IMG/VR virus record: IMGVR_UViG_3300042924_006566 | Span: 62,001-126,000 of that record | From: a virus | Direction: 5' to 3' (one strand) | DNA length: 64,000 nucleotides | Shown: positions 55,672 through 59,022 of the stretch, one piece after another | How the letters are laid out: every line of letters begins with the position of its first letter | Position numbering within the stretch: position 1 is the stretch's first letter | Translations under genes and position numbers: made by a program | The notes under the pieces: model-generated | Databases searched by the model: none | Told to the model about the DNA's origin: nothing | The model's input: only the letters and a program-made list of their open reading frames with translations

Positions 55672-55699
55672 ATTATAACAGAAAAATTTGTAGAGTCAA
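55672..55699 (-). promoter_or_regulatory. internal promoter of the tRNA array
   Basis: Minus strand TTGACT (55699-55694), 16-bp spacer, TATAAT (55677-55672); serves the last two tRNA genes. Confidence 0.75.
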
Positions 55700-57588: not shown

Positions 57589-57785
57589 ATATGCTCTGAC
57601 GGACCCTGGCGGTAATTATAGTGCATCAAGCCTGCAGGCCATCACTTGCACCTTCCACCCGCTTCCCAACAGGTCCCGTTCTCGCATTGCCAGCGCTGGT
57701 TCGGTAGGACCAGAACCACCCTGTAGACGTCATCTACCTTCTCATCGTCCGGGTCAGACTAGCCGTTGACGAAACGGCACGTTCT
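57589..57785. other. GC-rich spacer in tRNA array, no gene found
   Basis: A 197-bp stretch clearly richer in G and C than its surroundings. It holds a GCCGTT/AACGGC hairpin at 57762-57778 and a short leftward open frame without a proper start. It does not fold as a tRNA. Possibly a decayed gene or an unrecognised RNA. Confidence 0.5.
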
Positions 57786-58235: not shown

Positions 58236-58311
58236 TGGTAGGACGTGCGGGGTTCGAACCCACGACCAATAGATTAAAAGTCTACTGCTCTACCAACTGA
58301 GCTAACGTCCC
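58236..58311 (-). tRNA. tRNA-Lys(TTT)
   Basis: Acceptor GGGACGT/ACGTCCT, stem GTAGA/TCTAT, loop CTTTTAA, CCA encoded. Confidence 0.93.
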
Positions 58312-58430
58312 ATTTGTTTTGCTGACTGCACTATTTGCTGTGCTCATGCGGGATAGTCTAGAATTACCGCAATTATGTACACAGTTACTCGGGCATGATC
58401 AAGCCCATGGCTTACAATCAGCAAAACAAA
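58312..58430 (-). ncRNA. structured RNA between two tRNAs
   Basis: Fills exactly the gap between the 5' end of tRNA-Lys and the 3' CCA of tRNA-Glu. A 14-bp perfect closing stem (58312-58325 with 58418-58431) encloses three hairpins: GCAC/GTGC (58328-58343), TGCGG/CCGCA (58347-58371) and GGGC/GCCC (58391-58406), giving a four-way junction. tRNA end processing on both sides would release it. T4 encodes two stable RNAs of unknown role (C and D) in its tRNA cluster, a precedent. No protein is encoded. Confidence 0.65.
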
Positions 58431-58506
58431 TGGCACTCGGTACGGGAATCGAACCCGTCTTTCCAGCGTGAAAGGCTAGCGTCCTAAACCGATAGACGAA
58501 CCGAGC
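58431..58506 (-). tRNA. tRNA-Glu(TTC)
   Basis: Acceptor GCTCGGT/ACCGAGT, stem CTAGC/GCTGG, loop CTTTCAC, G73, CCA encoded. Confidence 0.92.
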
Positions 58507-58959: not shown

Positions 58960-58993
58960 AAAAGACTCTACAAATTTTTAAAGAACAAAACGC

Positions 58994-59022
58994 AGTATAC
59001 AACGGGTTTTGTGTGTTGTCAA
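58994..59022 (-). promoter_or_regulatory. main promoter of the tRNA array
   Basis: Minus strand TTGACA (59022-59017), 17-bp spacer, TATACT (58999-58994). The palindrome GTTGTAAAAATACAAC (59028-59043) lies 5 bp upstream of the -35 box. Confidence 0.9.

Follow-up and report, generated by a model that had tools for sequence, protein, structure and literature searches.

The T4 RNAs C and D (species 1 and 2) are small RNAs from the tRNA region of the phage, whose role is described as undefined in PMC3014915 and which are assigned to the late class in PMC9697503. GOLLD and ROOL are structured RNAs of phages and prophages that often lie near tRNA islands; they are described without an assigned function and form homo-oligomers held together in part by kissing loops (PMC12286853). 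In loop L9.3 of the OLE RNA the central tetranucleotide switches among the palindromes GGCC, GAUC and AGCU, and such palindrome switching in OLE and GOLLD backed kissing contacts that were also seen by cryo-EM (PMC12286853). The HIV-1 DIS carries a 6-nt palindrome with conserved purine flanks, and the phage-encoded phi29 prohead RNA (pRNA) oligomerises via loop-loop pairing (PMC7357161).

Here we analysed a 119-nt element in a phage tRNA array. Its broad kind, phage RNAs near tRNAs without an assigned role (T4 RNA C and D, GOLLD, ROOL), is already known, whereas this family, which is small and has a freely switching palindrome, appears to be undescribed, judging by Rfam 15 and by searches of open-access literature other than preprints. 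Like T4 RNA C and D the element would be a small RNA from among the tRNAs of a T4-like phage, but neither its sequence nor its covariance model matches them, and its conserved anatomy is different. GOLLD and ROOL are cages of several hundred nt, whereas the element has about 120 nt and one three-way junction; the likeness to the homo-oligomers of GOLLD, ROOL and OLE lies in a probable oligomer of the element, suggested by covariation-type evidence. With OLE L9.3 and the HIV-1 DIS it shares a self-complementary apical loop, but RNA and context are unrelated and about 12 different hexamers occupy the loop. The short form of phi29 pRNA is about 120 nt long and has a three-way junction. Membership of the element in this group was considered and rejected: pRNA molecules join head to tail through two different loops that are complementary, whereas the element lacks two such loops and has a single self-complementary one instead, and phages and sequence are different, with no Rfam match.

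An Rfam 15 search of the window (the whole stretch of 64,000 nt that was analysed) at gathering thresholds revealed tRNA only and left the element without a match; at a loose threshold its best match was mir-19, whose 19 bits fall short of the cut-off of 50. Searches of six loci with diverse members likewise detected solely tRNA at gathering, and the GOLLD, ROOL, ribozyme and riboswitch models gave no match.

A 119-nt element between tRNA-Glu and tRNA-Lys

The window corresponds to positions 62001-126000 of a source record of 156,624 bases and contains T4-like genes. Its DNA polymerase is about 50% identical to those of T4-like phages over the full length, with cyanophages as best matches. ARAGORN detected an array of 22 tRNAs on the minus strand, running from 58959 to 55513, and a candidate promoter at 59022-58994 lies about 35 nt upstream of its first tRNA (Ser). 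The transcript of the element was assigned to the minus strand because both flanking tRNAs lie on it. The features are as follows.

58994..59022, minus strand: sigma-70-like promoter TTGACA-17-TATACT, 11 of 12 consensus bases; candidate from a consensus scan only
58431..58506, minus strand: tRNA-Glu (UUC), directly upstream of the element in the transcript (ARAGORN)
58312..58430, minus strand: whole RNA element, 119 nt, between tRNA-Glu and tRNA-Lys; 5' end 58430, 3' end 58312
58413..58430, minus strand: P1 5' strand, 18 nt, with pairing that continues into the tRNA-Glu CCA (fold and covariation)
58391..58406, minus strand: P2 hairpin, GGGC ... GCCC with loop UUGAUCAU (fold, alignment and covariation)
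58385..58390, minus strand: junction strand GAGUAA, P2 to P3, columns invariant or at least 90% conserved in 82 aligned sequences
58380..58384, minus strand: P3 5' strand CUGUG (fold and covariation)
58367..58371, minus strand: P3b 5' strand UGCGG (fold)
58357..58362, minus strand: apical-loop palindrome UCUAGA, proposed homodimer kissing site at the family-wide palindrome position
58347..58351, minus strand: P3b 3' strand CCGCA (fold)
58338..58342, minus strand: P3 3' strand CACAG (fold and covariation)
58331..58337, minus strand: junction strand CAAAUAG, P3 to P1, near-invariant in 82 aligned sequences
58313..58330, minus strand: P1 3' strand (fold and covariation)
58236..58311, minus strand: tRNA-Lys (UUU), directly downstream of the element in the transcript (ARAGORN)

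A first-pass annotation of this DNA had described a non-tRNA RNA without an open frame, fitted exactly between the two tRNAs and closed by a perfect 14-bp stem, and the sequence analysis bore this out in part. The 119-nt gap at 58312-58430 is flush on both sides (ARAGORN), with the CCA of tRNA-Glu at one end and the 5' base of tRNA-Lys at the other. The perfect 14-bp inverted repeat pairs 58312-58325 with 58418-58431, and its outermost pair includes the last base, A, of the CCA end of tRNA-Glu. ARAGORN and Rfam match both neighbours and not the element, and the open frames across it encode just 21-51 aa.

On the minus strand the element folds with -44.0 kcal/mol (z -5.34; better than 200 of 200 dinucleotide shuffles) into a closing helix of 18 bp, including G-U pairs, with two arms inside. 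The plus-strand fold of -39.3 kcal/mol (z -4.05) also surpassed 200 of 200 shuffles; it was rejected, as the tRNA transcript runs on the other strand. The three hairpins of the cloverleaf proposed by the annotation are present in this plus-strand minimum-energy fold, but the tRNA strand forms a three-way junction with two arms.

An RNA family with a conserved junction

Exact matches to the initial 20 bases of the element occur in five further viral contigs; tRNA genes surround all of them, and compensated changes are already visible there. A pattern of the junction strands matched 104 contigs, 97 of which have the element (three of these cut by the contig end); two patterns with other anchors matched 113 and 91 contigs, and another scan gave 70 matches, mostly non-members. 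Chance matches, which have the pattern but lack the remainder of the element, were removed from the 104-contig set (L007, L020, L022, L028, L043, L074, L078), as were later ones (L175, L198) and those from the patterns with other anchors, including L166, L172, L177, L180, L188, L191, L192, L199, L200 and L206-L209. Copies truncated at a contig edge (L053, L064, L100) are excluded from the counts. The final set comprises 127 elements, the one in the window and 126 further copies from IMG/VR phage contigs, with 92 distinct sequences in the compared stretch. Exact core patterns inflate apparent conservation, a bias that the use of three patterns with different anchors limits; as sampling was anchored on the junction strands, the conservation of these strands is somewhat overstated.

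A covariance model, R1, was built from 39 elements, the window not among them. It matched the element in the window over the full length (58308-58436; 110.3 bits; E 5.7e-22), with scores of up to 148 bits for members, and the window element belongs to the R1-defined family by model match, palindrome position and proximity to a tRNA on the same strand. Among 31 whole records R1 matched 30, the sole miss (G007) being the record of the chance locus L022. Of these 30 member records 22 contain a relative of the window polymerase; in 21 the identity is 43-100%, and the relative in G012 is more distant. The two copies with different palindromes in G012 (524,565 bases; L037 and L079) were not used as a case of two dimer types in one phage; this record may be a chimera or an inverted-repeat assembly, because polymerase pieces lie near both its ends on opposite strands.

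The alignment of the 39 sequences showed pairing in 97.5% of the cells, and 18 of 35 pairs had changed on both sides. Its covariation score of 0.391 compares with 0.135 in shuffles (0 of 500 reached it) and with 0.040-0.092 when the partners were slid by 1-3 columns. The family consensus is a three-way junction with a long closing stem P1, a hairpin P2, an arm P3/P3b and near-invariant junction strands. P1 has 20 or more pairs of highly variable sequence, 14 of its 21 model pairs having changed on both sides; compensation is also seen for some pairs in P2 and in P3. P3 pairs 58-102 and 59-101 are each broken in 5 of the 39 sequences. P3b is nearly fixed among these 39; other clades in an alignment of 82 sequences use other P3b sequences. 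In all 82 the columns of GUAACU and AGCA show no variation, nor do parts of those of AAGCC and AUAGU, and the unpaired junction strands are conserved far better than the helices. The element is almost certainly a member of a structured RNA family. A comparison of related phages had been called for in advance, and the strong covariation that it revealed supports the proposal of an undescribed class of discrete non-tRNA, non-coding structured RNAs in phage tRNA arrays.

The inverted repeat, which is perfect and terminal in the window, would also suit the insertion of a mobile inverted-repeat element into the tRNA array, which the first-pass annotation had named as a finding that would speak against its proposal. 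This explanation hardly deserves credence: 29 of the 30 member records have one copy and one has two (G012, possibly chimeric), the repeat varies with compensation rather than being conserved in sequence, and the orientation is always that of the tRNAs.

Junction strands conserved beyond their helices are typical of ribozymes and aptamers, and a small ribozyme or riboswitch-like ligand binder, with the junction as catalytic or binding pocket, would have a precedent for its dimer in the hatchet ribozyme, whose crystal is a palindromic kissing-loop dimer (PMC7357161). We consider such a function distinctly unlikely, as no ribozyme or riboswitch model of Rfam matches and the downstream gene is not fixed in the loci inspected.

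The annotation had further suggested a relation to the stable RNAs of T4. Like the element, T4 RNA D is 119 nt long and adjacent to a tRNA, and the two have short strings in common, among them GGUAAGUC and CCUGAGUAAG. However, R1 run without filters on 68-77 kb of T4 gave no match in the RNA C/D stretch, and RNA D folds little better than its shuffles (z -0.83). Eight further RNA D stretches retain the shared strings in part, keep a different anatomy and have no palindromic loop that stands out. Kinship with RNA C or D was thus not upheld and homology is very improbable; that both are 119 nt long appears to be accidental. Rfam detected only tRNA at gathering in the T4 stretch. The relatives of T4 (NC_000866) RNA D (L217, L298-L305) keep AAACCGGGTCGCTACCGGTAAGTCGTCGGACTGA, with one base off in VR25, and CACAGC-GAAACGGCGC, while their middle hairpin varies freely; in RNA D of Shigella phage Sf25 the middle part seems lost.

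A switching palindrome in the apical loop

A 6-nt palindrome is centred 20 or 21 nt before AGCAAA in all 92 distinct elements (64 + 28), where about 3 of 92 would be expected by chance at two fixed positions. About 12 different hexamers occur at this position, against at most three at any other single offset. Counted by distinct loops, the palindrome is present in 54 of 54, compared with 14.4 expected from shuffling each loop. There are 24 different full palindromes of 6-10 nt, and those of 8 to 10 nt occur in many members. Two elements, L016 and L038, differ at only 1 of 111 positions outside the loop, yet their loop palindromes are wholly different. Mean loop-to-loop duplex energies, calculated as plain duplexes of the loops alone and not as kissing energies, were -14.9 kcal/mol for self-pairing, -9.6 kcal/mol for shuffled loops and -6.7 kcal/mol for loops with different centres. 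As a control, P2 showed a 6-nt palindrome, mostly UGAUCA, in just 7 of 26 distinct inner sequences and is thus not constrained to palindromes. A tree built without the loop columns gave at least 36 hexamer changes; it is based on few columns and poorly resolved, and for this reason we prefer the plain minimum of 11 switches among 12 hexamers.

The central bases adjoin one another and are unable to pair within one molecule, so that their joint change suggests pairing across two, an argument also put forward for OLE and GOLLD (PMC12286853). A palindrome that changes and yet stays self-complementary points to a symmetric kissing loop, and we consider it very likely, from this pattern of sequence change, that the RNA homodimerises through its loop palindrome.

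The loops are also perfect palindromes as DNA, and several resemble restriction sites. Together with the very different tRNA order among the arrays of these phages, this could suggest a site for a dimeric DNA-binding protein, or for a recombinase that shuffles tRNA arrays, with the fold as incidental or a mere carrier. Such a site would be kept as one sequence, yet about 12 hexamers occupy one place, a variety that argues against it. In every case, moreover, the palindrome caps a conserved RNA arm; P1 and P2 show the covariation of RNA helices, and the orientation follows the tRNAs in 120 of 120 cases; a DNA-level site is very unlikely.

Distribution, with proposed release and role

A tRNA lies within 800 nt of 120 of the 127 elements, and on the same strand in all 120. 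At the upstream side 54 of the 127 begin directly at a tRNA end (41 Glu, 7 Ala, 4 Asn, 2 Leu), and in 40 of these 54 the P1 3' strand contains TGG, so that P1 is able to pair with the tRNA CCA. A downstream tRNA (Lys, Asp, Tyr, Gln and others) follows within 31 nt in 84 of 127, and 36 of 127 have tight tRNAs on both sides; in other copies 60 to more than 1000 nt separate the element from tRNAs. As the neighbours vary, the long helix and not the tRNA ends forms the constant boundary. Release by ordinary tRNA processing, as first proposed, fits the window, but it would not extend readily to the family at large, with only 36 of 127 members tight on both sides and 7 of 127 without a near tRNA. In several of these seven (L030, L040, L047, L056, L099, L104, L171) an open frame begins shortly past the P1 3' strand, which leaves room for a cis role in such members.

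The family is patchy across T4-like phages and usually occurs once per genome. Among 80 loci picked by polymerase kinship, many of them fragments, the element was present in two, corresponding to 2 of the 12 loci with ten or more tRNAs; this patchiness suggests that the RNA is dispensable in many relatives. Blastn searches of named phages with the versions of the window, L002, L030 and L013, and of plasmids with the L016 version, revealed short chance matches or none. R1 matched 0 of 13 whole records of named phages under stricter filters, a result that is weak as negative evidence alone, and a pattern search of bacterial genomes gave seven matches, none with the rest of the element, which we regard as chance.

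The position on the tRNA strand in 120 of 120 cases and the possible pairing of P1 with the upstream CCA (TGG in 40 of 54 flush cases) would also be consistent with a cis element of the tRNA precursor that aids downstream tRNAs, as an RNase III processing signal, a spacer or an antitermination element; RNase III could plausibly act on such a long helix. Most arrays, however, do without the element (10 of the 12 tRNA-rich kin loci), its upstream (Glu, Ala, Asn, Leu and others) and downstream neighbours vary, and 7 of 127 copies have no near tRNA. Varying neighbours and patchy presence argue against a purely cis role, and a processing signal would leave the invariant junction core and the switching palindrome unexplained. 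We regard this explanation as unlikely.

The explanation that we favour, with a probability of roughly 0.7, is a small structured noncoding RNA that is released, forms homodimers and acts in trans. It would be transcribed together with the phage tRNAs and excised from the precursor by the enzymes that process the tRNAs on either side, with RNase III perhaps acting on the long P1 helix. The RNA would adopt the three-way junction fold, in which P1 closes the structure, P2 is a short hairpin and the P3/P3b arm has an internal loop; the fold is supported by covariation for P1 and for some pairs of P2 and P3. The near-invariant junction strands, whose conservation is observed, may be the working core. 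Pairing of the P3b loop palindromes of two copies would create a symmetric homodimer that displays two cores, and this stable dimer might, as a guess, hold, block or scaffold a conserved partner in trans during infection. A stable RNA released from the tRNA transcript probably acts in trans; a partner tied to translation or tRNA metabolism is a tentative idea. Equally speculative is the possibility that the palindrome is a changeable self-recognition tag, by which the RNAs of a lineage would pair with their own kind and poorly with others and which would be exchanged as a whole while the remainder of the RNA scarcely changes, that the target of the dimer might be a conserved host factor in RNA metabolism, translation or defence, which it would inhibit or redirect, and that tRNA arrays could be nurseries of unlisted structured RNAs.

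The family represents a new RNA with an unusually clear self-recognition signature in large phages of many environmental metagenomes. As a natural homodimer candidate of about 120 nt it is far smaller than GOLLD, ROOL and OLE and offers dozens of natural compensated variants. It also revives, with strong comparative evidence, the old question of why the tRNA clusters of T4-like phages also give rise to stable RNAs other than tRNAs.

The same array contains, between tRNA-Met and tRNA-Ala (57589-57785, minus strand), a further conserved non-tRNA RNA with a length of about 197 nt, which suggests that a systematic search of the gaps in phage tRNA arrays is worthwhile. Its relatives in many loci are about 70-77% identical over long stretches. 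In eight aligned sequences 22 of 52 predicted pairs had changed on both sides, and the covariation score was 0.485 against 0.189 in shuffles, a score biased towards the predicted structure, because one alignment served for both prediction and scoring. Its single-sequence fold is unremarkable (z -0.23), and a search against Rfam gave no match.

A long gap of 150-300 nt between the upstream tRNA and the element was found at 40 loci (32 distinct sequences), including L002, L003, L006, L016, L023 and L026. Most of the 22 gap sequences listed share a closing repeat, TACTAAAACAYATTGGGT ... ACCCCAATGTGTTTTAGTA, and are likely a third RNA family. A different motif, GGACAG and then GTAAC or a close variant of it, is common to the gaps of L012, L034, L049 and L054.

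The leader downstream of the candidate promoter at 59022 reads TTCTTTAAAAA, a sequence reminiscent of boxA. Inside the tRNA array a perfect match to the sigma-70-like consensus, TTGACA-17-TATAAT, lies at 56140-56112 on the minus strand. A perfect 16-nt inverted repeat (55682-55697 and 58964-58979), with arms 3.3 kb apart, has one arm in the array leader and the other near the array's end.
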